Below, one piece after another: positions 10,106-24,992 of a stretch of DNA of 64,000 nt (the first letter of the stretch is position 1; each line of letters opens with the position of its first letter). The notes below the pieces were generated by a model. It saw nothing but the letters and a program-made list of their open reading frames with translations. It did no database searches and was not told the DNA's origin. The DNA is from Beggiatoa alba B18LD (GTDB lineage: Bacteria > Pseudomonadota > Gammaproteobacteria > Beggiatoales > Beggiatoaceae), in contig NZ_JH600070.1 in the NCBI RefSeq assembly GCF_000245015.1, positions 3,678,684 through 3,742,683 on the forward strand, in the 5' to 3' direction. The position numbers and the translations under genes were made by a program.

Positions 10106-11545
10106 CTACAGTTTTATAGCGTTAATCCATTGTTCTATATCATTACGTTGAAAAATTCTTACTAATTCATGAATATGTTTAATTTCTTCACCATTCATTT
10201 TAAATACCACTTCAAAATTACCAAAGCCCCGACTTTTTCCCCAACCTAGCGTTAATTCACCTTCTAACAAATCCCGCGCAACCAATAATAAAAGCCCTTT
10301 TCCAGCATTCGAAATCGAAAATTCATCTTCTAACGAATCCCGCGCAACCAATAATAAAGGCCCTTTTTCAGCATTCGAAATCGAATCGTGCTTACTCAAA
10401 TGATGAATCGCAACAGAACCAGTTAAACCCTTACACTGAACCGCTTCAACCGTATAAAGCGCACCATCAGCAACTCCACCCGTAAACCTATCAACCGCGT
10501 TAAAAATTTGCTTTTCTGAAACATCATTTCCTTCAGAAATCAAATCACTAAAAAATAACACACCACGATGATTTGTATCACCAAACAAAGACGTTAAACA
10601 GTTTTCAACTTTTTCTTCACCTATCGTCAATAAAATTTTTCTGACTCGCCCACGCACCCAACCTCGCAAAGCCGTTGCAGGAATAAAAGCCCGCCCATCA
10701 GATAAACGGCTAAAAGCTAAATCTGGCTCATCATCCTCTTTTTCTTCTTTTTTAATGACAAAAGCAGGGTCATTCAACAAAAATTTAGTTTTAGGTACTA
10801 AAGTAATTTCAACTATATACCCTTGCTTTTTCAATATATCTAATTCAGCGGTAGGATACTGCCAATCTTTATAAGATTTATTTAATTCATGAGGTTGACC
10901 ATCTTTTAACCACTGAGCTAATGCGTCAGTTGTTAAATAACGCACCTTCAAATTTTCCAACTTAACTAATCCAAATCCTTTACTTCTGCCCGCGCCAACA
11001 GTTGCAAACTGCTTACCATCCCAACAAGCGAATAATAAACCACAAAACTGCTTAATATTTTCTTCAGTCACTTCTTTATTAAGCGATTCCAGACTCATTT
11101 CCAGTTTAAAAACAGCTCCCTCAGGCACGATTTCCAAGCTGAATAAATGATGTTCTTCCGCCACGCCTAAAATAGGATTTATACTAATTGATGTTCTTAA
11201 AATCGTACCTTGTTCTAAAGTATTAACCTTATCTTTAAAACTTGGTAAAGATTCTAAAGTCGCATCAAAAACACGCAAAATCCCTTCTTCTTTAGAATCA
11301 TCGAAATGACTGTTTCCAAAAAAACATTGACGTACTTTATTTTCATTTTCATTTTTAAAAAAATACGGTACTGCACTCGCCAAAACCCCACGCAAACTTG
11401 ATGCGGGTAAATACGGTTTTTTATTAAAATCTAAATACAATGTACTATAACTTTCTTTACCCTGCTCTTTTTCTACCCCACTCCCCACATGCAAAGCACT
11501 CAATGTTTTTAACTCAGCAGAAATCAAAACACGGCAGAAACTCAT
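10106..11545 (-). CDS. Two-domain RAMP (Cas7-like) type III CRISPR protein
   Basis: About 479 residues. The start at 11545 is secure: its ATG overlaps the previous stop as ATGA and is preceded by GGAGGAG; the longer reading frame is an artefact. Two RAMP (RRM-fold) units are visible. The first begins VLISAELKTLSALHVGSG with LPASSLRGVLA; the second begins near PKTKFLLNDPAF with IPATALRGWVRGRVR. Each ends in a glycine-rich loop (AGRSKGFGLV; WGKSRGFGNF). This is a fusion of two Cas7-type backbone subunits, as seen in III-D variants (Cas7-2x), and is expected to bind crRNA. A 22-residue segment in the second unit is tandemly duplicated. It is the last gene of the minus-strand operon. Confidence 0.8.
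   Translation of the reverse strand: MSFCRVLISAELKTLSALHVGSGVEKEQGKESYSTLYLDFNKKPYLPASSLRGVLASAVPYFFKNENENKVRQCFFGNSHFDDSKEEGILRVFDATLESLPSFKDKVNTLEQGTILRTSISINPILGVAEEHHLFSLEIVPEGAVFKLEMSLESLNKEVTEENIKQFCGLLFACWDGKQFATVGAGRSKGFGLVKLENLKVRYLTTDALAQWLKDGQPHELNKSYKDWQYPTAELDILKKQGYIVEITLVPKTKFLLNDPAFVIKKEEKEDDEPDLAFSRLSDGRAFIPATALRGWVRGRVRKILLTIGEEKVENCLTSLFGDTNHRGVLFFSDLISEGNDVSEKQIFNAVDRFTGGVADGALYTVEAVQCKGLTGSVAIHHLSKHDSISNAEKGPLLLVARDSLEDEFSISNAGKGLLLLVARDLLEGELTLGWGKSRGFGNFEVVFKMNGEEIKHIHELVRIFQRNDIEQWINAIKL
10254..10385 (-). repeat. 66-bp in-frame tandem duplication inside the RAMP gene
   Basis: Two adjacent 66-bp units (10254-10319 and 10320-10385) differ at only a few bases. They encode two copies of about SISNAxKGxLLLVARDxLE. 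Because 66 is a multiple of 3 the reading frame survives. Confidence 0.9.
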
Positions 11546-13311
11546 GCTAACTCCTCCCAATCCTTGTCTAAACCACCAAGCCCTTGCCACTGCGGATTAA
11601 TCACAATTTCCCCATACCCATTATTCGCAATATACGGATTCTCATTCCATGCTGACCCGCCCAATGTTTCTGAATGTTGTGGTAATCCTGTTTTAATCCA
11701 TTTTTTTAAAATTTCCAGCGTTTTCTCAAAATTCACAATATCAAATACAAATATGCTACCCGCACAAGTTAATACTTGAGGATTATAAGGATGTTTCGAC
11801 CAAAATCGCTTTTGCAAATATCCGCCACCGACTAAGGTTTGCCGAGCATAAAAATGAGATAAACGGAAAGCCCCCGCCTCGTTTGCCAAATTTTCCCATG
11901 TTTTAGCATATTGCTGATGTAATGCATCCCCGCCATTTGTCGCAGGAATATCATACGGATTTGGCAATAACAACGCAGGTGTTTGTAACATCAATACAAA
12001 CTGTGCATTATTCTGCTTAGGCAATTCATTTTCTACTAAAAATTTAAATGGCTCTTGATAGACAGTAACTGTTGCTGTTGCTTTAGTCTTACCTAAACCC
12101 ACTAACTCCACAGAAAAAATGTTAGCTAGCTCAGACAATACCGCTTTACGTTCAACTTCAGGAATTGCTTCACAATCAATATTTGCTAACCACACATAAT
12201 CCTGTGGATGAATCACTTCCATTGAAAATAGACTCTCATCCTTTGCCCTATTAGTCCCTTCTTCAATCGCCGTGCGTATATTGACTGACCGCTCAAGGTC
12301 TAATTGACCACACAATTTACTGGCATTTCCCCAAGTTTCCCCTTTCCAATCCACAGAAAAGGCAGGCGCACAGTTTTTAATTAATCCCGCTGTCTTTTTT
12401 AAACTCACGTCATATAGTTTTTTATCTGCCTCAACAAAACTATACGGAATCGCCATTGAACGCTTTTTTTCTTTTTCATTGGATTCTTCACAAGCAAAAG
12501 CATGGGAAATTTTAATAAAACTAATAGATTTCTTTAACTCATCATGCTGATGACATTGTCGCATTAATGCGCCTAAAATAGCTGCACCAGATACAACCGT
12601 TTCCGCAGCAAAATGATTATTACCATGATGATGTTTTGCAAAACAAAAAGGACGGTCAAATTTTAAAGCAATGCCAAAAACGGCATTTTTTGGAATATTT
12701 GCCTTTTTAAGTTCAGGTAAAGGAATTTCTTTTACTGCCACTGACTCAATTCGCCCAAATCCCACACCACGCATTGCACCGATTGCAGAAATATATGCCA
12801 ATCCTTTATTTAACCAACGTAATAAACGTTCTTTCTCTTCTTTGTCTTTTAAAAATGCGCGAATATTACCTTTAAAAGATACTACCTGTCCTGTTATAAA
12901 AGGCGTTTCAATGACTTGTAATGCGCCTTCCTCTACTGTTCCTTCTTCACTAATCTTAATACGATGCCGTACTGATTTTTCTGAATTTTCTACTGTTTGC
13001 GCCTGCCAATAATAACTAAAGAACAAATTCGCCCGTTGTGGCTCATTACTACTATTTTCATCCGTATCTTCATCAAATTCAGATTTAGCCCCTAACCACG
13101 TTTTAATATCTATATTTGCTTGTGGATAAATCCTATTAAAAAATTCCCATGTTTGCCGTAAATTTCCACGCACGGACGACCCCAATAAGCAAGGCTTACC
13201 TTCATTGTCACGCAATGTAATCGTGTCAAGCCCATGCGCTCGCCCACCAGTTGCTTGTGTCAAAACAGGCGCATGAATATTCAATGTCACTTCAAATAGA
13301 TAATGTTCCAT
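11542..13311 (-). CDS. RAMP-superfamily type III CRISPR protein, Csx10/Cas5-like C-terminus
   Basis: 589 residues. The N-terminal unit starts LFEVTLNIHAPVLTQATGG with GSSVRGNLRQTWEFF and a glycine-rich loop AMRGVGFGRIESV. A second unit starts FGIALKFDRPFCFAKHHHG. The C-terminal third has RLSHFYARQTLVGGGYLQKRFW followed by TCAGSIFVFDI, resembling the R...GG...AGSVF pattern of Csx10/Cmr3-type Cas5 proteins. It probably combines Cas7- and Cas5-like parts and caps the crRNA 5' handle; that role is inference. It overlaps the next RAMP gene by 4 bases and follows the Cas10-like gene by 63 bases. No strong ribosome site is seen. Confidence 0.75.
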   Translation of the reverse strand: MEHYLFEVTLNIHAPVLTQATGGRAHGLDTITLRDNEGKPCLLGSSVRGNLRQTWEFFNRIYPQANIDIKTWLGAKSEFDEDTDENSSNEPQRANLFFSYYWQAQTVENSEKSVRHRIKISEEGTVEEGALQVIETPFITGQVVSFKGNIRAFLKDKEEKERLLRWLNKGLAYISAIGAMRGVGFGRIESVAVKEIPLPELKKANIPKNAVFGIALKFDRPFCFAKHHHGNNHFAAETVVSGAAILGALMRQCHQHDELKKSISFIKISHAFACEESNEKEKKRSMAIPYSFVEADKKLYDVSLKKTAGLIKNCAPAFSVDWKGETWGNASKLCGQLDLERSVNIRTAIEEGTNRAKDESLFSMEVIHPQDYVWLANIDCEAIPEVERKAVLSELANIFSVELVGLGKTKATATVTVYQEPFKFLVENELPKQNNAQFVLMLQTPALLLPNPYDIPATNGGDALHQQYAKTWENLANEAGAFRLSHFYARQTLVGGGYLQKRFWSKHPYNPQVLTCAGSIFVFDIVNFEKTLEILKKWIKTGLPQHSETLGGSAWNENPYIANNGYGEIVINPQWQGLGGLDKDWEELA

Positions 13312-13374
13312 AAAAACGGCTTTTGCGGGAGAAAAGTTAGAAGGGAAATAAAAGCTAAAAAAGCTGTTTACGCT

Positions 13375-14826
13375 TTATTTACTATTTGTATCTGAATAAC
13401 AAATATAATCCCATAACTCAACTAAATGTATCCATTGCCATTCTTTAGATTGATTAGGAAAGGCTTCATCAAGATATGGGTCTATCTGGTCACTAATTTT
13501 TTTCCCATCCTCATCTTTTTCATCACCTAATACTGTCGTTAAGCGGTTTCGTTGTTCCTCAAACCTACTTTTATCACCATTGATAGCGTGCACAATTTGA
13601 TAGGCTTGCGACTTAGGAATGTGCACAAGGTAAGCCAAACTGTCAAAACCTTCTTTAGTAAAAGGTCTTAAAGGCAGGTGGGAAGCAGATAAGGAAGGAT
13701 GAATTTTCTTACGCAAAGAAGAAGGGGATTCTGATGGATAATCAATGGACTCTAATACCATATAATCAAAAAAATTATCTTTTCTATAAGAACCATCCTT
13801 GTCCTTATTTTTAACCTCATCCGCCAACTCTTGCGCAAATTGACGAATACGCCGAATAGGCGTTTTAGCTCGACAAAAAACTAAGCCACCCGCGTGGGTT
13901 AATCGCTCATTTTCAAATTTCCAATCTTGGCTAAACGCATAAAAAGCCATCAATAACTGCAAACCACGCCATGCAGGGACAACAAATAACATTTCGTCGC
14001 CCCCCCATAACAAGGTTTCTAAACGAACTTTGTTATAATTCAAAAAATGAGGGTCTTTTACAATGGTCTCAAGCAAGTTTTTTAGAAAGTTCTTACGTTT
14101 ACCCTGAACATCATGGTCAAATTTAACTTGAGATTCTTTATTTTTACAATGATTTGTTTGAATTTTACTAAAACTATTACCATCTAAATATAAAACAGCG
14201 ATTTTATCCGCTAATTTTGCATAACTATTATCTTTTTCTGATAACTCATGCAAATCATCGGTAAACTCATAATTTAACCCTGTTTCATCTTTATAAAAAC
14301 CTTTCTTTTGCTCACGTCCATACTTTAAACGTACACTCACAGAGCTAGAAACAGCTTTTTTTTCTTCTCCGATTCTCTCTTTTTCAACAATTGCAGGAGT
14401 TAAGTTAGTTAACTCACAAACTAAAGTATCTGCTTTATCATTTTTCTCAGGAATAACTAACGAAAATTGTTGCATCTGTCTAAAGCGATTACGTGCAATT
14501 AATGCCTCTTTATCTCGAATAAATTCGCTAGTTTCAGCTTGTATATCGACAACAAAATTAAAATGCTTAAATTTATCATTTTCATTAAGAGCCTTTACAA
14601 CATTATCAGCAGTTTCCTGTGCTTTTTCTGGTGTATTTGCCTCGAAAGCAAATAAGCCAATAGAAGCCCCAACAGAAATGATGTTTTTATCATTAAATTG
14701 TTTTGAAACTTCTTTTGCCGCATCGCGTAATAAAAAACTTGCTCCACGAATAACACTAATTTGATTAGTATCATCAAGAACAGCACTTAAATTAACACCT
14801 TCCATCCGTAAATAATAAGTAGGCAT
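13375..14826 (-). CDS. cas10: Short Cas10-like protein with GGDE palm motif, no HD domain
   Basis: About 483 residues, far shorter than typical Cas10 (700-1,000). The N-terminus YYLRMEGVNLSAVLDD and later IRGASFLLRDA resemble the first palm domain of Cas10/Cmr2-type proteins. The second palm carries VLYLDGNSFSKIQ and LLWGGDEMLFVVP (GGDE at about residues 275-278), then HAGGLVFCRAKTPIRRIRQ. GGDD/GGDE palms in Cas10 make cyclic oligoadenylates or SAM-AMP in known systems; here this is inference. No HD nuclease motif is present. The ATG at 14826 has GGGA upstream and fits the family start; an ATG at 14850 overlapping the previous stop (ATGA) is the alternative. It is the second gene of the operon. 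Confidence 0.8.
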   Translation of the reverse strand: MPTYYLRMEGVNLSAVLDDTNQISVIRGASFLLRDAAKEVSKQFNDKNIISVGASIGLFAFEANTPEKAQETADNVVKALNENDKFKHFNFVVDIQAETSEFIRDKEALIARNRFRQMQQFSLVIPEKNDKADTLVCELTNLTPAIVEKERIGEEKKAVSSSVSVRLKYGREQKKGFYKDETGLNYEFTDDLHELSEKDNSYAKLADKIAVLYLDGNSFSKIQTNHCKNKESQVKFDHDVQGKRKNFLKNLLETIVKDPHFLNYNKVRLETLLWGGDEMLFVVPAWRGLQLLMAFYAFSQDWKFENERLTHAGGLVFCRAKTPIRRIRQFAQELADEVKNKDKDGSYRKDNFFDYMVLESIDYPSESPSSLRKKIHPSLSASHLPLRPFTKEGFDSLAYLVHIPKSQAYQIVHAINGDKSRFEEQRNRLTTVLGDEKDEDGKKISDQIDPYLDEAFPNQSKEWQWIHLVELWDYICYSDTNSK

Positions 14827-14846
14827 GGTTTTTCCCGTATCAATTA

Positions 14847-17330
14847 TCATTTTTTAGAACCAAACTCACGTTTTAACCAAATAACTAACCAAACAACGGC
14901 AATAAATGATAAAGATAGTCCCAAAGTATCTTTGAACGCTTTAAGCCAATTTAGGATGAATATATCGCTACCATCAACCGTAAATAGCGTGACAAATAAA
15001 GTCACTAGTGCAAACCAAAAAGCAGCTTTATTGAAATTCTTTGTTTGCAAAGTAACCGCATACTCATCCGCCCGCTCCATTTCATCCTTAATCAAGGCAT
15101 ATTCTTTTTCTAAACCCAAATTTTTAGTTTGTAATTCAAAAACTTCTATTCCCTGTGTTTGATTAGTAACTTCTCGAAACCAATAATTATTGGTAAATAA
15201 AATGAATTTTTTGCGCAACTCTCTAAAATTCTCAGTTTTATTTTGTGTAGATAAGGCTTCTGTTGCATGACTGATTCGGCGGTTATAATGGCGTAACGTC
15301 ATTTGATAAAACAAAGAAACTAATAACATACGTCCGTAGATAAAAGGCACATGTGACGGCGCGATAACATGGCTAAAAAAACCACCAAATCCCATATATG
15401 CGTTAGCATAACTACAGCAGCCTGAATATGTACCATTTTCTTCCCAACGGGATAAAGTATGTTGTTTTAAAAGGTTTTTTGTAAACTCAGAATCATAAGC
15501 ATATTCTTGGCAATCAGAAAATACTAAGTTCTTATGGTCAACATACAAAGCTAGGCTAAATAAGCGTTTTACTTCATCTTTTGCAAATTGAGTTTTAGGC
15601 AGTGTGCCACTCAGCCCATACGCAACAGAAACAAACATACGGTCATCAGGTAAAGGTAAAGAAATGAGACGTTTTTCAATGGAGGTAGATGCAAAAAAAT
15701 ATTTTAATAAATGCATAATAATGCCAGATAACTGGCTAGTTGTTTTAGATATTTCTTCATTTTTTGTTAAAAATGATGTGGATTTTTCTGCATCACCTTC
15801 TTTCCAAGTTAATTCTAAATTGGGGAGTTTTCCCTCTTTCACCTGTTCATAAAAACTGGCATAAATCAAACGTGCCTGATTTGTAAAATGTAGCCAATTT
15901 TGCAACTGTAACGATTTTATTTTATTGAATTCTTCAGGACTGCTAAAAAACAAATCATGCCACCATGAATCATTATCTTGCACTAAACTGCTCTTACTAC
16001 CTAACTTTTCATCTGATTCTACAGATATAGTAAGAACATATAAACCATTAAAATAAGTGAATAAAGAGACATCTTTAACTTGAGTAGTAATTTTACTTTT
16101 CTCTGTATTCAAGATAAGTTTTAGTTTTAAATCATTGATACGTTTTAATCTATCTTGTTTGATAGGCTCTTCGGCTTTTGTCGGTTCATTTTTAATATCA
16201 AAAATCAGGTTTCTGATATGTGGTAAGAAATATAGATAAGCCTGACGCTCTTTTGAAATTGGTGCATCTTCTTTTGCTTCCTCTAAACTAACAGGCTTAT
16301 CAATATCAATTTGATAAGATTCGACATATTCTGGCTTTATAGCATATAAATTTAGTAATTTATTTGCTTCTAGTTCTTCCTCAGAAAACAAATCCAACGG
16401 TAAATAAAAAGTGCATCCATAATGACGCAATGGGCGACCATAATGTAAGCAAATATCTAATAATTGAGAGACTAACTCATTAATATTAGCCAGCTTGTGA
16501 CGAGGTATTGCTCCAAAAAAACAACCTAATTCCCCACCGCCTTGCCAAGTGATAAAGTCTTTTTCCCATTTTCCTTGAGTACGTAATTGTTCTAATGCGC
16601 TTTTATATTTAGCAGAACCCGCAAATTCAATTTGAGAAATATTTTTAGGGTTATTATCATCACAATAAATCACCATAACATTTTTTAAAGAGATAACTTT
16701 TTTATATTCCAGTGATTCGTTATATTTCTTTTCTGTTGGAAACTGTGCAGCTTCTAACATAACGCTAGAAAACTTTTCAGGAGCTAGCACTAAACGGACA
16801 TTTTCTAAATCACGCACATTTTTCTCAAGATACTCAAACGCTTCACTCATCAGTTTTGATTTATCTTGTAACTCCCATTCTTTACGCCGTAAACAATAAG
16901 CCTCTCCCCAAGGCACTTGTGCTTGAGATAAACCCATTAAAAAATCACGGTCATTAATCGCAATTTTAATCTGTTCTTCTGTTAGTTTATAATCAATGAG
17001 TTGAGCGAATTGCTCTAGGGAAGAGAGGGAAGAAACGAGCTGAGTTTGGTCATCATATAAATGATGGTCAATAATGTGAAGTGTTTTACCGAGTTGTTCT
17101 AACTGTTTAATATAAATTTGCCCTTCTGATTTATCAGGCATTTCAACAATTAAGACATGTGGGCGTAATTGGGTTAAATCAATCTGTTTAAGAGCATTTT
17201 CTAATGTTAAACCCCAGCTCCCTTCAATTTTATAGAAATTTAGCCCTTTTTCTTTTGCAATCTCTAAAATAGTTTTACTTTCTAAATCATTACAAGGACA
17301 CAATAGAGTAATTGCAGTTAGGTCTAACAT
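14847..17330 (-). CDS. DHH-motif protein with two C-terminal membrane helices
   Basis: 827 residues, not matched to a named family. The N-terminal ~150 residues look like a DHH-phosphoesterase fold: IVEMPD (61-66), then LHIIDHHLYD with DHH at 88-90, then NDRDFLMG. The first metal motif expected in DHH enzymes (HxDxDG-like) is replaced by CPCNDLESKT, so activity is uncertain. The middle has no recognisable motif. The C-terminus has a coiled-coil-like stretch (LGLEKEYALIKDEMERADEY) and two hydrophobic helices at about 769-785 and 804-819. First gene of the Cas10/RAMP operon; AGGA lies 8 bases before its ATG. A nucleotide-signal phosphodiesterase or membrane effector is a reasonable guess only. 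Confidence 0.6.
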   Translation of the reverse strand: MLDLTAITLLCPCNDLESKTILEIAKEKGLNFYKIEGSWGLTLENALKQIDLTQLRPHVLIVEMPDKSEGQIYIKQLEQLGKTLHIIDHHLYDDQTQLVSSLSSLEQFAQLIDYKLTEEQIKIAINDRDFLMGLSQAQVPWGEAYCLRRKEWELQDKSKLMSEAFEYLEKNVRDLENVRLVLAPEKFSSVMLEAAQFPTEKKYNESLEYKKVISLKNVMVIYCDDNNPKNISQIEFAGSAKYKSALEQLRTQGKWEKDFITWQGGGELGCFFGAIPRHKLANINELVSQLLDICLHYGRPLRHYGCTFYLPLDLFSEEELEANKLLNLYAIKPEYVESYQIDIDKPVSLEEAKEDAPISKERQAYLYFLPHIRNLIFDIKNEPTKAEEPIKQDRLKRINDLKLKLILNTEKSKITTQVKDVSLFTYFNGLYVLTISVESDEKLGSKSSLVQDNDSWWHDLFFSSPEEFNKIKSLQLQNWLHFTNQARLIYASFYEQVKEGKLPNLELTWKEGDAEKSTSFLTKNEEISKTTSQLSGIIMHLLKYFFASTSIEKRLISLPLPDDRMFVSVAYGLSGTLPKTQFAKDEVKRLFSLALYVDHKNLVFSDCQEYAYDSEFTKNLLKQHTLSRWEENGTYSGCCSYANAYMGFGGFFSHVIAPSHVPFIYGRMLLVSLFYQMTLRHYNRRISHATEALSTQNKTENFRELRKKFILFTNNYWFREVTNQTQGIEVFELQTKNLGLEKEYALIKDEMERADEYAVTLQTKNFNKAAFWFALVTLFVTLFTVDGSDIFILNWLKAFKDTLGLSLSFIAVVWLVIWLKREFGSKK

Positions 17331-17405
17331 AAAAAATTCCTATAGTCAGAATGCATAATTCATTGTTATGATATTAATATCTTAAATGCCTTTATGGAGT
17401 TAATC

Positions 17406-19460
17406 ATGTCAGAATTTCACCACGTTTACAACTTTATTCCTACAACAGGCAAATTGAATAATAAAGACACACTAACAACTGATTATTCAGAAATTAAAGA
17501 CGGTGAAACGCATATTCGACATGATAAATGGGAAACAGGAACACGTTCAGGACGTATTGTGGCGCGTGTGCATTTAAAAACGCCAACGGTTGTTGGTGGA
17601 CAACATGAAAAAAGAGAAGATGGGACAACACTGGTTAAACCCTATCAATTTAATGAAAAAATTGCAATTCCCGCCAATAGTTTACGTGGGATGATTGGTA
17701 GCATTATGGAAACTTTGAGCCAGTCTGCTTTGCGTGTTTTGGAAAAAAAGCAGTATTCAGTGCGGAAAGAGGTTAGTGAGGGGTTATCTGCGATTGGGAT
17801 GTTACGTAAAAATAAAGAAAATTCAGAAAAATGGGAAATTTTACCGCTGACTGTACTAACAAATTTAAATGGTTTATGGAAAACAGTATTGCTCGAAAAA
17901 AAGTTTAATGACTTATCCAGAATAGCTATTTTATTAAGTGGTTATACTCCTATTGGTAATAGTTCTTTGAGGAAAAGCGATTTTCTCGCTAAAGACCCAG
18001 AATTAGAATCCTTTCATGGAAAAAATAAGGTTAAGTTTTACTATGCCAAAGTTGCGGGTAATAAAGTAGTAGATATTAAAAAAGAACCGTCAAATGGTTA
18101 CGTAAAAGGATTTTTACGAATTCTAGGAATTGATGGGCGAGAAAAAGATATGTTGACAAAACGACATGAATTTTTCATTCCTTATCCTGATGGCGAGACC
18201 AGACCAGACAGAATTCCTTTACCTGATGAAGTCATTGAAAATTTCATCACATTAGCTAAAGAACGCAATGCAGAAGATGAAGACTTGCCGTTTGTTCTAA
18301 AAGGATATACACAAGTTAGTGATAAGTGGCAACCCGAAGATGGACAACTCGTTTTTTTTGATATTAAAAACGAGAAGGGGGAAATCGTTGTTAAAGAAAT
18401 TAGTTACTCCTCTATTTGGCGTAAATTGATTGATGGTGATAGTCATGCGTTTTTTGAGCAAATCAATAAAAATCTACTCCCCTTTAATCCTAACCGAGAC
18501 GGCTTAACCCCCGCTGAATGTATTTTAGGTACGATTGAAACAATCGAAAAAGGGGGGAATAAGCGGGAAGGTGAAAAACAAGCGCGGGCATTAGCGTCGC
18601 GGGTGCGGTTTTATGATGCGCAAGTGGCTGAAGGTGAAACCGTGAAAACAGAAAAAGAAGTTATATTAAAAATTCTCAGTAGTCCTAAACCACCTTGCCC
18701 TGCCATGTATTTTCATCAGAATGGCGACAAAGAACAACGAACTTTTATTAAAAAAACAGCGTTGAAAGTTGGTGAACATCGCCCTAATGGACGTAAAGTG
18801 TATTTGCATCACAAGCCGACGGAAAAAAACTGGGAGACAAAACACAAAGACCCTATCAAAGACAAAAACGCGAGCTTAGACCAAAAAATGCGTTGCTCTC
18901 CGATGCAAGCAGGACAAAGTTTTTATTTTCATATTGATTTTGATAATTTAACAGATACAGAATTAAGTTTATTAATTTGCAGTTTATATCCGTCTGAAGC
19001 GTTTCAGCACCGTTTAGGATTGGGCAAGCCGTTGGGATTGGGGTCAGTAAAAATTGACATCATGGGTGTGTTTTTAATTGACCGTTTAAAACGTTACACA
19101 GCGGACGATTTTCTTTCTGGTAATCGTTATCATGATGTGGTTCAGGGAACAGACACCGATGATAAATGGCAGAAAAATTACCCCACAGAGTTTGATGCGT
19201 TGCGAAAGCAAGAAACACAATCACCTGAGAGTTATCGTAAAGACAATGAGCTTATTGATGAGACGACACTGGGGTTATTAAATACCGTCGGTAATCCTGC
19301 TAATTTAAAGGTAGAGGTTAAACCGCCTTTAACAACAAAGCAAACTGATGATGAACTAGAAACGTTTGAATGGTTTAGTGAAAATATAAAGAAAGGTAAG
19401 GGTAAAGCATTAGGTCTTATTAAAGCAGGCGAAAAGTTACCAACCTTTAAAGTAACCTGA
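17406..19460 (+). CDS. TIGR03986-like RAMP-superfamily CRISPR protein
   Basis: About 684 residues. The ATG at 17406 is chosen over 17394 because GGAG sits 6-7 bases upstream. The N-terminus HVYNFIPTTG and GRIVARVHLKTPTVVGG, followed by IPANSLRGMIGSIMETLS, is the RAMP pattern of the TIGR03986 type. A long insertion separates it from a C-terminal CSPMQAGQSFYFHIDF ... HRLGLGKPLGLGSVKID, another glycine-rich RAMP loop. It is divergently transcribed from the DHH/Cas10 operon across 75 bases, so both promoters share this gap. In III-D-type complexes a Cas7 with an insertion is one backbone subunit; that equivalence is inference. Its stop codon lies inside a palindromic repeat that starts at 19453. 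Confidence 0.78.
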   Translation: MSEFHHVYNFIPTTGKLNNKDTLTTDYSEIKDGETHIRHDKWETGTRSGRIVARVHLKTPTVVGGQHEKREDGTTLVKPYQFNEKIAIPANSLRGMIGSIMETLSQSALRVLEKKQYSVRKEVSEGLSAIGMLRKNKENSEKWEILPLTVLTNLNGLWKTVLLEKKFNDLSRIAILLSGYTPIGNSSLRKSDFLAKDPELESFHGKNKVKFYYAKVAGNKVVDIKKEPSNGYVKGFLRILGIDGREKDMLTKRHEFFIPYPDGETRPDRIPLPDEVIENFITLAKERNAEDEDLPFVLKGYTQVSDKWQPEDGQLVFFDIKNEKGEIVVKEISYSSIWRKLIDGDSHAFFEQINKNLLPFNPNRDGLTPAECILGTIETIEKGGNKREGEKQARALASRVRFYDAQVAEGETVKTEKEVILKILSSPKPPCPAMYFHQNGDKEQRTFIKKTALKVGEHRPNGRKVYLHHKPTEKNWETKHKDPIKDKNASLDQKMRCSPMQAGQSFYFHIDFDNLTDTELSLLICSLYPSEAFQHRLGLGKPLGLGSVKIDIMGVFLIDRLKRYTADDFLSGNRYHDVVQGTDTDDKWQKNYPTEFDALRKQETQSPESYRKDNELIDETTLGLLNTVGNPANLKVEVKPPLTTKQTDDELETFEWFSENIKKGKGKALGLIKAGEKLPTFKVT

Positions 19461-19749
19461 GTTCTGCGAGTTTAAAAAATAATGGTTTGTCTGGTGAATC
19501 TCGATGAAAAACAAGAAAGGAAGGTCTGCCAGTCCTTCAAACTTTTTCGCATGTTCCTACAGACCTGCTAGGTTTTAAAAACCTAGCAGGTTTTTTCTTG
19601 TCTGAATCAGAATTAGCAGAATTAAAAAGCATGATTCACCTTAATTTTTTGGTTTAAGGGTTTTAAATTCTGTTAATTCTGAAAATTCTGTGAATTCTGA
19701 TTCAGACAAGCTGTTGTCTTTTTAACAGAAACTCGCCGAACTCAGGTTA
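19453..19749. repeat. Nested palindromic repeat, copy A
   Basis: Outer inverted repeat TAACCTGAGTTCTGCGAG (from 19453) and CTCGCCGAACTCAGGTTA (to 19749). Inside lie a hairpin CCTGCTAGGTTTTxAAAACCTAGCAGG near 19564-19592 and an inner pair GTCTGAATCAGAATT (near 19600) / AATTCTGATTCAGAC (near 19692-19707). The inner hairpin ends in TTTTTT and can terminate the upstream RAMP gene. Related copies are at 35238, 39577 and 45168. Confidence 0.8.
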
Positions 19750-19785
19750 GAATAGGATTATCGTTCAGTTAGATAGGTATAAAAC

Positions 19786-19821
19786 AAAAAAGCCTCCGTA
19801 TTTTGATACGGAGGCTTTTTT
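19786..19821 (-). terminator. Strong bidirectional terminator beyond the CRISPR array
   Basis: Perfect 15-bp stem, arms AAAAAAGCCTCCGTA (19786-19800) and TACGGAGGCTTTTTT (19807-19821), with a 6-base loop. It lies 9 bases past the leader-distal repeat and would end the array transcript on the minus strand. Confidence 0.88.
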
Positions 19822-19830
19822 GTTTGTTCT

Positions 19831-20001
19831 GTTTCAACCGCCTGCATTGGCGAATCAGCTGTAACACGCTACCAAACGGTATAATAAAACGTTACAAGGT
19901 TTCAACCGCCTGCATTGGCGAATCAGCTGTAACAGCTCTCTGAAGCTATAGATGATTTTAATAAGTGTTTCAACCGCCTGCATTGGCGAATCAGCTGTAA
20001 C
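19831..20001 (-). CRISPR. CRISPR array of three 35-bp repeats and two 33-bp spacers
   Basis: Identical 35-bp repeats at 19831-19865, 19899-19933 and 19967-20001; spacers at 19866-19898 and 19934-19966. Read on the minus strand the repeat starts GTTACAGCTGATTC and ends GGCGGTTGAAAC, giving an 8-nt handle GTTGAAAC typical of type III/I repeats, and a short CGCC/GGCG stem. Direction minus is supported by this end, by the promoter and AT-rich leader on the right, and by the terminator on the left. Confidence 0.93.
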
Positions 20002-20216
20002 CCCGACGGTTAAAATAATCGCATACTTTTCACCTGCTTGCAAGCCAAAATTTTCACGAAAAATCGCTCGAAAAAGTAGAACTCTTTTGCATATTTTTTG
20101 CATAAAGAAATAATGTTTAAATTCAATAAAATATGGATAGCGATTTTCAAAAAAACACCTCATTTTACGACACTCGAAAAGTAGAACTCTCTTCATGATT
20201 TTAAAGGATTATTTTA
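20002..20216 (-). promoter_or_regulatory. CRISPR leader region
   Basis: AT-rich 215 bases between the cas1 stop and the first repeat. It contains a direct repeat of about 19-20 bases, CTCGAAAA(A)GTAGAACTCT, at 20066-20085 and 20171-20190, about 105 bases apart. A candidate promoter sits next to the array. Confidence 0.6.
20015..20043 (-). promoter_or_regulatory. Candidate sigma-70 promoter of the CRISPR array
   Basis: On the minus strand TTGCAA (20043-20038), a 17-base spacer, then GATTAT (20020-20015). Transcription would start within a few bases of the first repeat. Confidence 0.5.
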
Positions 20217-21167
20217 TCATTCCATTATTTCCGCAGTTGGATGAATAACTCGATATTGACGTAATTTATTCAATAAAACGGCTAAACTATCGCGCATCGG
20301 TTGCTGTAAAAAATCCTCCGCTTCTCCATACCACGCGCCATAAAACCGACTACGCCCCGACTTTTCCAAACTACACGCCCCCTCTTTACCAACAAAAAAA
20401 TCCGCTGGACTTAATAACCCTGCTTCAACCTGTTGCCATAACCATTCATCCACAAAAGGGCGCACCCGTTCCAACACGTCTAACGCCAACGAAGGACGAC
20501 CACGATAAGGCACATGTAAAAAACCAATCCCTAACTCTAACCCGTGCGACACGACTAACTGCCCAACACTATGCCCCGCTAAAGTATATCCTAATGATAA
20601 TAAAGTATTAACAGGGTCACGTGGTGGGCGACGATTACGCGCTTTAAATCCCCATGTATCAGCCCATAAAGTCCGCCATTTTTCAAAATATATCTGTGCA
20701 ACACTACCTTCAATCCCCATTAAAACAGCAATATCACTTGCTTGCTGTACTTGCCTCACCATTGGGGCTAATTGATGCACAATCTGATGATGCCCTAACC
20801 ATTGAATTTGGGCTTCTATTTTTTCCACAACCATCAACTTAGCTAAAGCAAGACGCGCCGAATCATCCGCAAATGCGCGATATTGTGCGAGACGTAAATC
20901 AATATTACGAGAAGATTGAGGAAATAAATAAATCCCTTCCCCTGCGCCATGTGCAGGTAATAACACAACACTAACGCCGACAGTATGTAACGCCCGCAAT
21001 AAACTCGTCGGCAAATTGACTTCGCCTTGTACAACAATTTGTTTTAACGCATTTATCCCAATTCGAAAAATATCCCCATCAGGATAACGTAAACAAACCA
21101 CTTGTCGATTACTGCTTAAACTTAATTCAGCGTCGCGACGGTCGACTAATAACGTCATTGCAGTCAT
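20217..21167 (-). CDS. cas1: CRISPR integrase Cas1
   Basis: 316 residues, normal for Cas1. Metal-binding residues look intact: the Glu in GIEGSVAQIYF, the His in GFLHVPYRGRP, and the Asp/Glu in SLALDVLERVRP. Cas1 with Cas2 inserts new spacers at the leader end of the array. The ATG at 21167 has GAGAGGG about 7 bases upstream. The gene is last in the operon cas6-RT-cas2-cas1, and the array follows directly. Because the cas2 copy here is broken, Cas1 may have no local partner. Confidence 0.92.
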   Translation of the reverse strand: MTAMTLLVDRRDAELSLSSNRQVVCLRYPDGDIFRIGINALKQIVVQGEVNLPTSLLRALHTVGVSVVLLPAHGAGEGIYLFPQSSRNIDLRLAQYRAFADDSARLALAKLMVVEKIEAQIQWLGHHQIVHQLAPMVRQVQQASDIAVLMGIEGSVAQIYFEKWRTLWADTWGFKARNRRPPRDPVNTLLSLGYTLAGHSVGQLVVSHGLELGIGFLHVPYRGRPSLALDVLERVRPFVDEWLWQQVEAGLLSPADFFVGKEGACSLEKSGRSRFYGAWYGEAEDFLQQPMRDSLAVLLNKLRQYRVIHPTAEIME

Positions 21168-21194
21168 ATAAACCCTCTCAATATTCCGCCTTAC

Positions 21195-21512
21195 TTAACG
21201 AAACCACTTCAATAACTTTTGCCACAAACCTGCCTGTTTTGGGGCTTGCTGTGTCTGCATCTGTGGTAAAGGCGGTGCATCATGCGTTAAAAACCAAATA
21301 TCACTGGGGCTTGCCAATACATAAATTCTTAAATCATCATCATCCTGCATCAAATCACTAACCTGCATGATTAACTTTTTTAATACTCGCCCATCACCCT
21401 AATATAAATAAACAGAACGTTGTAAATAATAGGTTTTCTTTACAGTCACTCGTTGAATTTTTTGCAACCGACTATTTTCTCGAATGTCATAACAAAACAA
21501 ATACCAACCATA
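21195..21512 (-). pseudogene. cas2: cas2 remnant with in-frame stop and lost start
   Basis: Translating the minus strand from 21512 gives YGWYLFCYDIRENSRLQ, then KKTYYLQRSVYLY, a TAG stop at 21399-21401, then GDGRVLKKLIMQV and DDLRIYVL, ending at TAA 21195-21197. WYLFCYDIRENSRL and YYLQRSVYLY are the strand 1 and strand 2 signatures of Cas2, and the stop sits where Cas2 proteins often have Glu. There is no ATG in frame at the 5' end: the frame runs straight into reverse transcriptase sequence, so the first codons are lost. The order cas6-RT-cas2-cas1 supports the call. A sequencing error could explain the stop but not the missing start. Confidence 0.85.
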
Positions 21513-22140
21513 AAATCGTATCTAACTCATGTAAATACAAATTGCACAAAAAAGGCGACAATACCATCCCTTGCGGTAATCCGCGCCCTTTACCACTGGG
21601 ACGAAACTTATCAGGCATACTCTCAATACCTGCTCTTATTGTATTAACTAACTCATTGTCATCACACAATTTTTGTAATCGTTTTAAGGCTGATTCATAA
21701 GGGATGTTATCAAAGCACCCCTGAATATCTGCATCACCCAATCAAACAAAATCTTTCTGTACCCACTCGCGCACTTTAGCAACCGCCATATCAACCGTAC
21801 ATTGTGGACGATAACCAAAACTAGACTCATGAAAAATAGCCTCGCCTAAAGGCTCTATAACGGTCAAAATGGCACGCTGTACTAACCTATCCTGCACAAC
21901 GGAACTACAAATTAAACGTTTTTTACCATCTGCCTTATCAATTTCAAAACAATTCATTCGTTCAGGCTGATACTTTCCTGCTAAAACCTTTTCTGATAAC
22001 AAACCAACATGTTTAATCAAATTCGACTGCATTTCTTCAACAGAAATACCATGACACCATAAACCCCGCTCATTTTTAAAATATCGCCAAACATGATTTA
22101 AAACAGCAGGAGACATTGCTTTTTCAAGATATTTTCCCAT
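21487..22140 (-). pseudogene. CRISPR-associated reverse transcriptase, broken
   Basis: Group II intron-like RT that accompanies type III adaptation genes. The first 132 residues run from MGKYLEKAMSPAVLNHVWR through KKRLICSSVVQDRLVQRAIL and SSFGYRPQ to WVQKDFV, where TGA (21742-21744) stops the frame. The same frame continues GDADIQGCFDNIPY, with the first catalytic Asp, and GKGRGLPQGMVLSPFLCNLYLHELD. The expected YADD box and thumb are missing, because at about 21513 the sequence switches to cas2 in another frame. TGA probably replaces a Trp codon (TGG). Start at 22140 has AAGAGGG upstream. Two independent lesions make RNA spacer acquisition by this protein very unlikely. Confidence 0.88.
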
Positions 22141-22165
22141 TAATAACCCTCTTTAAATTTAAAAG

Positions 22166-23161
22166 TTATCGTACCCAAGCACGCACCACCCCAAAACCAA
22201 GCGCACGTTTTTGCCCACCTCCTGCTAAAGATAAAGCTAATAACCAAGGCATTGCAGGTTGTAATATTCCTTCAATATCAGCAATCCCTGTAAACCCCTG
22301 TATTACATATTCATGCTGATTCCGTCGTGAAAAACGGCTACCTAAATCTATTTCTGTCAGTTGTAAACGCGCCACAGTTAGTCCTTCTGCACTTAAACGC
22401 GCAGCATTACGTGCAATACACGCTAAGCTATGACGTTCTGATTTATCTAAAGTTAAACGACGGTCTTCTATATCCCACGCTACCCACTCATAAGCCACAT
22501 TAGCAAGAAGTAATTTTAATGGTAAGCCGTTGTTTAAATCATATGTTTTTCTAAAATAACCCGCCTGTCCATCACGAGAACTTAACAATAAAGGGGTCAT
22601 AAACTCTAATAACAAATGATTCATACTCTGCCAAACAGTTAAACGCTCTGCGATGCTAAGAACAGGGCTTGCTGTCACTGAAATAATAGAAAAAGGGATT
22701 AAAACCCCTTCACAACGTAAGCCAGTTATACCCATATTTTTAATAACTTGTAGCACAGCTGTTTGTGAACTCACTGCTTGCCGTCCCCATAAAGTCACCT
22801 CTAAGGTAAAACCAGAAATCTCTTCCCCTTGCTGTTGCTCTAACGTTGGTGAATACAAAAAAACGGGGCGGGCAAAATCACGTCGATGGATTGCAGAATA
22901 CGGTTTGTATAAACAGTGAACGAGACATTTATCAGGTTGTTGGCAAACAGGCTCACCGTCTGTTTGGCGTTCACAAGCGGATTCTCCGAATACACACAAT
23001 TGCCAAACCGCCCGCCCAAAGCTACCCGCTAATGAAGTGCTGGGTGTACTGCCATTTTTTTGCGATATCCATTGTAGCGGGTATTCAGTAATACATTGTA
23101 TTGTCAATGTTTTAACAGGTAGTTCTAGGGGGGATAATAAAGGATGATAGGTTTGTGTCAT
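22166..23161 (-). CDS. cas6: CRISPR RNA-processing endoribonuclease Cas6
   Basis: 331 residues. The C-terminal glycine-rich loop SLAGGGQKRALGFGVVRAW is the Cas6 RAMP signature. A cysteine cluster (CVFGESAC ... PVCQQPDKCLVHCLYKP) matches the CRISPR_Cas6 (PF10040) type. Cas6 cleaves the precursor at the repeat stem and leaves the 8-nt handle. It is the first gene of the cas6-RT-cas2-cas1 operon, 25 bases before the RT. In other type III loci these three activities are fused as Cas6-RT-Cas1; here they are separate genes in the same order. Confidence 0.87.
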   Translation of the reverse strand: MTQTYHPLLSPLELPVKTLTIQCITEYPLQWISQKNGSTPSTSLAGSFGRAVWQLCVFGESACERQTDGEPVCQQPDKCLVHCLYKPYSAIHRRDFARPVFLYSPTLEQQQGEEISGFTLEVTLWGRQAVSSQTAVLQVIKNMGITGLRCEGVLIPFSIISVTASPVLSIAERLTVWQSMNHLLLEFMTPLLLSSRDGQAGYFRKTYDLNNGLPLKLLLANVAYEWVAWDIEDRRLTLDKSERHSLACIARNAARLSAEGLTVARLQLTEIDLGSRFSRRNQHEYVIQGFTGIADIEGILQPAMPWLLALSLAGGGQKRALGFGVVRAWVR

Positions 23162-23342
23162 GATTGTAGAGAGATATTTGATTTTGATTTAAGTAAATAG
23201 ACTTAGCAGTCAATAAGATTTTAAGCACCTAGAAAAATACCAAAAAATTAGGTTATTTATCATGAACAATGATAAGTTATTCCCACAAAATAACTAATGT
23301 TTTTCGCCATGTAGCCTTAATCACAAATCAGGGAAAAATGGC

Positions 23343-23358
23343 TGTCGTGTTTGCGACA
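23343..23358 (+). promoter_or_regulatory. NifA upstream activator site
   Basis: TGT (23343-23345), ten bases, ACA (23356-23358): the TGT-N10-ACA consensus bound by NifA. It lies about 67 bases before the -24 element of the nifB promoter. Confidence 0.8.
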
Positions 23359-23407
23359 AAGCAACGACACAAATAGTTTATTAACAGTAAAATCAGAAAA
23401 TTAAAAT

Positions 23408-23459
23408 TTAGGCATGGTGTTTGCCTTAGCATCAATACGAAATGAGACACCATGCCTAA
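23408..23459. other. 13-bp dyad spanning the nifB promoter and leader
   Basis: Perfect inverted repeat TTAGGCATGGTGT (23408-23420) / ACACCATGCCTAA (23447-23459), with 26 bases between. The left arm contains the -24 element and the right arm lies at or after the expected start of transcription, so the symmetry exists in DNA rather than in the transcript. Confidence 0.75.
23410..23426 (+). promoter_or_regulatory. Sigma-54 (-24/-12) promoter of the nifB operon
   Basis: AGGCATG-GTGT-TTGCC: GG at 23411-23412 and GC at 23423-23424 with the required ten bases between. Close to the consensus TGGCACG-N4-TTGC. Together with the NifA site this indicates expression under nitrogen limitation and low oxygen. 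Confidence 0.82.
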
Positions 23460-23483
23460 AACTGTTAAATAGAGGATAGTGCG

Positions 23484-24992
23484 ATGATGGAATTAACCGT
23501 GTTAGGGCAGGAGCCTGTGGCAAAAGGCGGATGTTCTTCCAGTTCCTGTGGAAGCACCAATGACCAATTAGGTCATTTACCCGAACATATTCGCGAAAAA
23601 GTTCACAATCACCCCTGCTATTCAGAGGAAGCGCATCACTACTACGCACGTATGCACGTTGCCGTCGCGCCAGCCTGTAATATTCAATGTCATTACTGCA
23701 ATCGTAAATACGATTGTGCCAACGAATCTCGCCCTGGTGTCGTCTCCGAATTGTTGACCCCAGACCAAGCGATTAAAAAGACGCTAGCAGTTGCCGCTAC
23801 GATTCCTCAAATGACAGTTTTAGGCATTGCAGGCCCAGGCGACCCATTAGCAAACCCTGAAAGAACCTTTGCAACATTCCGTGCTTTATCAGAACAAGCT
23901 CCTGATATTAAATTGTGCGTTTCTACCAATGGGTTAGCCTTACCTGAATCAGTTGATGAATTAGCTAAACATAATATTGATCATGTGACTATCACCATCA
24001 ACTGTGTTGACCCTGAAATTGGTGCACAAATTTATCCGTGGATTTTCTGGAAAAATCGTCGGATTAAAGGGATTAAAGGCGCGCAAATCCTGATTGAACA
24101 GCAACAAAAAGGCTTAGAAATGCTCACCGCTCGGGGCATTTTAGTCAAAGTAAATTCTGTCATGATTCCTGGTGTGAACGATAAGCACTTAGTGGAAGTC
24201 AGCAAAGTGGTAAAAGCGAAAGGCGCGTTTTTACATAACGTCATGCCTTTAATTGCCGAAGCGGAACATGGCACATTCTACGGTGTGATGGGACAACGTG
24301 GCCCTGAACCTTCAGAATTGAAAGAGTTACAAGACCAATGTGAAGGCGACATGAATATGATGCGCCATTGCCGTCAATGTCGTGCGGATGCAGTTGGTTT
24401 ATTAGGCGAAGACCGTGGCTCAGAATTTACCATTGATAAAATTGAAGAAATGGAAATTAATTATGCTGAGGCGATGGTCAAGCGTGCCGAAGTTCATGCC
24501 AAAATTGAAGCGGATTTAGCTGAGAAGAAAGCGAAGCAAAATCAACCGCAATTAATTCAATTGCAAGGTTTAAGTGCGAAACCGCGCAAAACTTATCGTC
24601 CTGTTCTTATGGCGGTCGCAACCCAAGGCGGTGGTTTAATTAACCAGCATTTTGGACATGCAAAAGAGTTTTTACGCTATGAAGTGACTGAAAATGGCGT
24701 GAAAATGGTCGGACATGCAAAGACGGATTTATATTGCAGTGGTGATTCTACATGTGGTGAAGCAGAAACCACTTTGCAAAAAATTATCCGTGCTTTAGAC
24801 GGTTGCGAAGTCGTCCTATGCTCCAAGATTGGTTATGAACCTTGGTCACTGTTGGAAACTGCGGGTATTCAACCCAATGGCGAACATGCAATGGAACCCA
24901 TTGAGGAAGCCTTATTAGCGGTTTATCAAGAAATGATAAACAACGGTAAGTTAGACGACGTAGTTGAAACTCAACGCCAAGCCATTGCTTAA
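23484..24992 (+). CDS. nifB: Nitrogenase cofactor radical SAM enzyme NifB
   Basis: 502 residues. The radical SAM motif CNIQCHYC binds the [4Fe-4S] cluster. It makes NifB-co, the carbide-containing Fe-S precursor of FeMo-co. The N-terminal CSSSSCGS and later CRQC cysteines fit ligands for additional clusters. The C-terminal ~110 residues ([25 protein letters not shown]...) form the NifX/NafY-like carrier domain found fused in many NifB proteins. AGAGGA lies about 8 bases before the ATG. First gene of a nif accessory operon with a NifA/sigma-54 promoter. Confidence 0.97.

Follow-up and report, generated by a model that had tools for sequence, protein, structure and literature searches.

The closest described counterparts of the locus studied here are the RT-associated type III modules in which the reverse transcriptase (RT) and Cas1 are separate proteins, such as those of clades 9 and 13 of Toro et al. 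(2018; PMC6013744), where, as in the present case, a group-II-like RT is found by cas1 and cas2, beside a type III module. The same set of Cas6, RT, Cas1 and Cas2 makes up the Thiomicrospira complex, in which one Cas6-RT-Cas1 fusion and one Cas2 form a heterohexamer around a central Cas2 dimer (PMC8102632). In the described integrases, two Cas1 dimers flank a Cas2 dimer (PMC8102632; PMC10011333), the central dimer being made of one Cas2 (PMC8102632; PMC10011333; PMC9048733), and the type III adaptation systems that have been tested require Cas1 and Cas2, and are inert after either has been knocked out (reviewed in PMC9048733). As regards the genus Beggiatoa, a published remark credits B. alba with six repeat regions, a cas1 and a RAMP gene, and states that Cas genes were not identified in B. 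leptomitiformis (PMC5728499).

The DNA analysed here, hereafter the window, is a stretch of 64,000 nucleotides of the B. alba B18LD genome (genome G000, 4.27 Mb in 3 contigs; positions 3678684-3742683 of contig C2). It differs from the modules of clades 9 and 13 in that its RT and cas2 are broken. Whereas Thiomicrospira has a Cas6-RT-Cas1 fusion and a single Cas2, the genes of the window are separate, and in its relatives two Cas2 units, Cas2A and Cas2B, are joined in one chain (Cas2A::Cas2B). Such a fused tandem Cas2 is not mentioned in the available text of PMC5513706, PMC5541045 and PMC6013744.

Layout of the locus and interference genes

The features of the locus are collected in Table 1.

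Table 1. Features of the CRISPR locus, in window coordinates.
Feature	Position	Strand	Supporting match
Cas7_IIId-like RAMP protein, two RAMP stretches	10106..11590	-	best PADLOC model Cas7_IIId
RAMP protein, Csm4/Cas5- and Cas7-like	11542..13311	-	best PADLOC model III-D Csm4
Cas10-like protein, palm with GGDE	13375..14850	-	family and PADLOC matches
DHH phosphodiesterase-CorA membrane protein fusion, predicted signalling effector	14847..17330	-	PADLOC CorA E 4e-117, DHH_CorA E 5e-8
TIGR03986-family type III RAMP protein, divergent strand	17394..19460	+	E 8.6e-84
Terminator-like perfect 20-nt inverted repeat, 3' of last repeat	19782..19825	n/a	
CRISPR array, 3 repeats and 2 spacers	19830..20001	-	
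Leader, common to six further arrays of the genome	20002..20216	-	
cas1 integrase, open, 316 aa, E, H, D/E motifs	20217..21167	-	PF01867 E 1e-62
cas2 remnant, Cas2B half of tandem Cas2, startless, TAG at 21401-21399	21195..21512	-	
Deletion junction (putative), RT frame to Cas2B frame (+1), approximate	21510..21516	-	
RT continuation past TGA through QGMVLSPFLCN, stops short of YADD and thumb	21511..21741	-	RVT_1 E 1e-10
RT 5' part, ATG at 22140, up to and including TGA 21744-21742	21742..22140	-	
cas6 crRNA-processing endoribonuclease, open, 331 aa, first gene of operon	22166..23161	-	

The frames of Cas10, the RAMP proteins, the DHH-CorA fusion and Cas6 are all open, the interference genes spanning 10106-19460. 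They include a Cas10 and RAMP proteins of the III-D Cas7 and Cas5 types, a subtype that is given by model matches; for the RAMP protein on the divergent strand, the PADLOC ranking placed Csm3 models first and Cas7_IIId next. The cyclase motif of Cas10 is GGDD; the Cas10-like protein of the window has GGDE at residue 283, and an HD domain was absent from its family matches. The cas6 product scored 24.6 bits with PF10040, slightly below the cut-off of 25, and matched Cas6 of PADLOC with an E-value of 2e-12.

The module also encodes a CorA-like membrane effector with a phosphodiesterase part, whose DHH motif is at residues 88-90; the fusion protein gave no match with Pfam and NCBIfam. The SAM-AMP type III loci with CorA and NrN (PMC10600005) likewise combine CorA with a DHH phosphodiesterase, and the two are fused in the window as they are in Aliarcobacter butzleri; the loci shown there, however, are III-B, while the window locus is III-D-like by model matches. 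According to the available text of the 2025 classification (PMC12669027), III-D loci do not encode any of the known enzymes that cleave SAM-AMP; in contrast, the DHH-CorA fusion stands in a III-D-like locus.

The broken adaptation operon

An earlier note, made from the letters of the window, had described an adaptation operon in which the RT frame is interrupted by a TGA at 21742-21744, lacks YADD and thumb from about 21513, and is joined to a startless cas2 frame with a TAG at 21399-21401, between an intact-looking cas6 upstream and cas1 downstream. This account is confirmed, and the interpretation given with it is right in outline. Both stop codons were found at the same coordinates on the - strand, the flanking cas6 and cas1 frames are open, and the other points were borne out by frame reading, by alignment with relatives and by the match of the remnant with PF09827.

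A group-II-like RT adjoins cas1 and cas2 at the locus. The sequences preceding and following the TGA both resemble RTs far beyond chance (TIGR04416, E 3.1e-22 and 4.3e-15, respectively), and the position of the TGA is Trp in all 13 other aligned RT rows. Past the TGA, the RT frame is open to 21487, and similarity to RTs continues to about 21511, ending ...LCNLYLHELDTIL. The RT catalytic core is thus incomplete, with a TGA inside it and a frame that ends before YADD. When the 5' part of the RT was used as query against viral contigs, no relative was found.

The Cas2 remnant is offset by one base from the RT frame; likeness to Cas2 begins at 21512 (YGWYLFCYDI), and the frame is closed by a stop at 21197-21195. 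The remnant, with its internal TAG, scored 41.2 bits with PF09827, above the cut-off. The stretch past the TAG gave 101 bits with a Cas2B profile, one of whose four seed rows is the window's own remnant, and no match with a Cas2A profile. There is therefore no intact Cas2 here: a start is lacking, a TAG interrupts the frame, and Cas2A is absent.

The nature of the missing part becomes apparent from three metagenome-assembled genomes (MAGs) in which the RT is uninterrupted. In a Thiomargarita MAG (L032) the order is RT, Cas2A::Cas2B, a second RT and cas1; a Thiomargarita MAG contig of 5428 bases (L050) is identical to L032 where the two were compared. In a Thioploca MAG (L040; L051) RT and Cas2A::Cas2B are followed, close to where the contig ends, by the beginning of a cas1 that is truncated, and in a Methylococcaceae MAG (L052) the contig ends soon after RT and Cas2A::Cas2B. 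As far as about nucleotide 626 of the gene, the window RT is colinear with those of Thiomargarita and Thioploca; beyond this point the sequence passes directly into Cas2B, the last RT-like codon being at about 21513 and the first Cas2B-like codon at 21512. By hand subtraction of the alignment offsets, the missing stretch amounts to about 538 nt against Thiomargarita and about 614 nt against Thioploca; it comprises the RT from about residue 210 on, including YADD and thumb, and the whole of Cas2A.

Since the remnant is the Cas2B half only, while the relatives have a fused Cas2A::Cas2B, one deletion would have taken both the 3' part of the RT and all of Cas2A, fusing the RT, shortly before YADD and out of frame, to the start of the Cas2B domain. 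The remnant would be startless because Cas2A, the upstream half of the fusion, was deleted. The TGA in the RT and the TAG in Cas2B would be further lesions beside the deletion, and the ancestral order would have been cas6, RT, cas2A::cas2B (one fused protein) and cas1. The combination of a deletion and two nonsense codons that the earlier note had suggested fits the relatives, with the refinement that the deletion would also have removed an entire first Cas2 domain.

The fused Cas2 of the relatives

PF09827 matched two stretches in all four fused proteins tested (those of the three MAGs and of L084). Identity over Cas2B was 50.0% between the window and Thiomargarita, 58.7% between the window and Thioploca, and 48.3% between Thiomargarita and Thioploca. 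An AlphaFold2 model of Cas2A::Cas2B from one sequence was unusable (pLDDT 44.5), whereas a three-row alignment gave a pLDDT of 73.1 and a pTM of 0.70, with two predicted ferredoxin-like units in succession. In a Foldseek search with this model, solved Cas2 chains were among the best matches, with modest E-values (about 1e-3 to 4e-4) and mostly over one unit. The chains spanning both units, such as YkoF, aligned poorly (rmsd near 12), so that the model says nothing on dimer geometry.

The second RT of the Thiomargarita contig (1247-2170) has a frame that stays open over about 308 codons, adjoins an apparently active RT, and has no counterpart in the window. The Asp residues of motif A, QG and ADD are RT motifs; in this protein, Asn replaces the first Asp of motif A and PG replaces QG, ADD being unchanged. 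With one contig as evidence, it may be either a pseudogene at an early stage or a partner with a structural role, and the tree does not place it. The identification of the RTs of L033 and L034 with this second RT was dropped, as the tree does not resolve it and no cas2 was found beside them; they may instead be other decaying copies.

Gene copies and age of the break

Over the whole genome, the Pfam Cas1 profile had a single match, the cas1 of the locus. With the Pfam Cas2 profile, the 4.27 Mb yielded the broken copy and one 14.6-bit match, below the cut-off and with a stop, and no other. The search for a second cas1-cas2 set that the earlier note had recommended therefore ended, with these models, without any set above the cut-off.

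Identity of the RT to the outgroup L052, over the columns of the window RT, was 56.0% for the window, 56.5% for Thiomargarita and 56.0% for Thioploca. Compared with Thiomargarita, the window RT was 67.4% identical before the TGA and 67.5% after; compared with Thioploca, 66.7% before and 63.6% after. Because the remaining RT codons have diverged no more than those of the intact copies, the break of the operon is probably young, and the RT and Cas2B pieces bear no sign of long unconstrained drift. The catalytic residues of Cas1 are E, H and D/E; the window Cas1 is intact, and these motifs align with those of its relatives. Its identity to four relatives is 51.8-54.0%, against 58.4-73.4% among the four themselves; it is simply the outlier, so that these identities give no rate test for Cas1.

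Loss in the genus and decay in the family

In a second genome of the same genus (G005), which in view of the published remark on Cas genes may be that of B. leptomitoformis, the region extending from the pilin genes as far as nifB is colinear with that of the window. The site between fimT and nifB contains about 660 unmatched bases with a hairpin at the end, followed, at L120 17079-17470, by one repeat, the end of a leader and a cas6 stub, codons 1-113, that is 72% identical. No Cas1 match and no RAMP match were found in that genome. With no Cas1 or RAMP match and a cas6 stub at the same site, the system is one that the genus has lost elsewhere too. Judging from the colinear site and the stub, the common ancestor of the two genomes probably had it at the fimT-nifB site, where one species has since lost it and the other has it in broken form.

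Among 42 genomes of the family, 20 had a match in the Cas1 search. RT, Cas2 and full-length Cas1 occurred together on only one of the examined contigs with close homologues (L032-L043), namely the Thiomargarita contig L032 of genome G006. The RT of G023 has a frameshift and two stops, and that of G024 has altered catalytic residues and ends at a contig end; in neither was cas2 found between RT and cas1. Many matches in the family are cut by contig ends, so that no rate of decay can be given. Short Cas1 pieces of the same type are present on four contigs of G028 (C17, C22, C99 and C174), two of which end at residue 226 at contig ends, and one family genome (G037) has 65 RT matches, many of them within longer frames that may be those of group II intron RTs.

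CRISPR arrays and leaders

Within 3 mismatches of the local repeat, 29 repeats in seven arrays are present in the genome: the three local ones, 23 in five arrays that differ by one base, and three in an array with three differences. The six other arrays (L044-L049, near 233, 363, 432, 2213, 3054 and 3977 kb of C2) are 87-90% identical to the local one over a 251-nt query comprising the leader and the first repeat. In all six, the last repeat is degenerate and a similar hairpin comes after it; the local array closes with an undegenerate repeat and a different hairpin.

Genome G005 has three orphan leader-array cassettes elsewhere, at sites unlike those of the six arrays compared, and only the leader and repeat stretches match. 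Its repeat differs from that of B. alba; a search with it retrieved arrays in L121 and L122 and none in L123, although an earlier comparison had given repeat matches in L123. As the seven scattered cassettes have a common leader and their sites are not common with G005, whole leader-array units appear to move or to be copied. Array orientation was considered as a signal, all seven B. alba arrays being on the - strand, and was dropped since G005 has two on - and one on +.

In the array near 233100 of C2 (L044), a spacer and its repeat occur as two consecutive copies, which resembles the adaptation-independent repeat-spacer duplication mentioned in PMC9048733.

Paired Cas2 in the class

Paired Cas2 proteins were sought in the class in two overlapping samples. 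In the first, a two-row profile (A1) had matches in 34 of 369 genomes, and 20 regions from 17 of the matched genomes were picked by hand from the profile matches, a choice biased towards pairs. Most of these regions, one on G360 among them, hold a listed Cas2 pair. All 20 contain a Cas2 that scored better with the A profile and, downstream of it, another that scored better with the B profile; the assignment is by profile scores only, and the margins are small in some loci. Cas2A and Cas2B are fused in one of the 20 (L084). The second survey, with Pfam Cas2 alone, covered 274 genomes of the class, of which 75 had Cas2 (117 matches in 93 loci). Two Cas2 matches within 4 kb were present at 24 of the 93 loci, in 20 of the 75 genomes, and the remaining 69 loci had a single Cas2.

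Two layouts were recognized, cas2A-cas2B-cas1-RT (L073-L079) and cas2A-cas1-X-cas2B (L083, L089 and L091 among others). The protein X has PDLC01185 as its best PADLOC match in all three loci tested (L083, L089 and L091), and also matches Pfam Cas1 over its N-terminal part only. The PADLOC description of PDLC01185, 'Cas1, diverged variant, second in the loci', points to another adaptation locus with paired paralogues; it is absent from the window, which has one Cas1. Unequal partners are recurrent, with a diverged second Cas1 in one layout and, on one contig of Thiomargarita, a second RT whose catalytic residues are altered.

In the available text of the open-access literature searched, tandem, paired, fused or heterodimeric Cas2 is not described, save for a passing mention of two Cas2 proteins in a Methylacidiphilum strain with a truncated cas1 (PMC6688271), which is not proof of novelty. 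The term 'fused cas2' occurs elsewhere, and other uses of such terms refer to the two copies in the usual integrase or to one Cas2 in each of two loci.

The fixed order of the A and B types, and their fusion in some lineages, suggest a Cas2A-Cas2B heterodimer. Type III adaptation uses no PAM (PMC9048733), and the orientation of new type III spacers has been called unclear (PMC5576922); the asymmetry of Cas2A-Cas2B could orient prespacers under such conditions. We regard as possible, although rather doubtful, that the intact operon belongs to a widespread and undescribed class of modules, whose core is a Cas2A-Cas2B heterodimer (fused in some Beggiatoaceae) that tells the ends of prespacers apart and sets the direction of insertion without a PAM. 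Against this stands the Marinomonas RT-type III-B system, described with one Cas2, which acquires spacers in either orientation (PMC5576922), so that control of orientation is not a general need. According to a review (PMC9048733), RT-active systems show no strand bias outside rRNA genes.

Discussion

Three separate lesions are present in one operon that has open genes on both flanks. The window very probably holds a recently pseudogenised RT-type adaptation operon (deletion, TGA and TAG) on a III-D-like module, in which acquisition is dead and use of the stored spacers may persist. Since RT catalytic residues, Cas2A and a translatable Cas2B are lacking and no further cas1 or cas2 was recognised in the genome, the acquisition of new spacers is not to be expected; considering that Cas6, Cas10, the RAMP proteins and the CorA effector are open, transcription, processing and use of the spacers stored in the seven cassettes could continue. 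It counts against this reading that RT, Cas2 and full-length Cas1 occur together in only one relative contig, which also has a second RT absent from the window. In addition, the open cas1 with its motifs counts against it, because an unused gene would not last long.

Two alternatives take this open cas1 as their starting point. It might be kept for another job, e.g. DNA repair, beside partners whose loss is old; the broken RT pieces, however, have no excess divergence, and a young break accounts for an open cas1 without any second job, which makes this explanation improbable. Equally, acquisition might go on with the Cas1 of the locus if Cas2 (and RT) came in trans from a different replicon or element, as the conserved motifs would permit, but the 4.27 Mb genome contains no further Cas2 above the Pfam cut-off, and such a supply appears distinctly improbable. 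An error of sequencing or assembly, making intact genes appear broken, is conceivable in a genome that is in 3 contigs; it would have to produce, within about 350 nt, two stops and a deletion of more than 500 nt that takes a whole domain, next to neighbours that are open, and is very improbable.

As to recoding, the RT codons past the TGA are as conserved as those before it, as would be expected if the stops were read through to give a functional RT-Cas2. A young lesion explains this conservation better, and the product would have an RT without YADD and thumb, no Cas2A, and a Cas2B in another frame, so that readthrough is hardly credible. Finally, the best NCBIfam family of the RT is that of the group II intron RTs (TIGR04416), which might indicate a degenerate group II intron landed in the operon rather than a CRISPR RT. 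No Rfam match at the gathering threshold is present at 19000-23500, though, and the same kind of RT directly adjoins Cas2 in the Thiomargarita, Thioploca and Methylococcaceae MAGs; the chance of such an insertion is practically negligible. Readthrough, intron insertion and a second adaptation set, each of which was considered, were rejected on this evidence.

As a broken operon, the locus is a case of ordinary decay, and the ancestral double Cas2 is the part worth following. The break appears to be a familiar fate, that of a type III system losing the half that writes memory and keeping the half that uses it, and is a clean example because a genome of the same genus shows further loss at the same chromosomal site. 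Its useful by-product is the ancestral anatomy, in which Cas2 is a fused tandem, together with the wider occurrence of Cas2A/Cas2B pairs. An unequal Cas2 pair would make the orientation of spacers in PAM-free type III systems directly testable.
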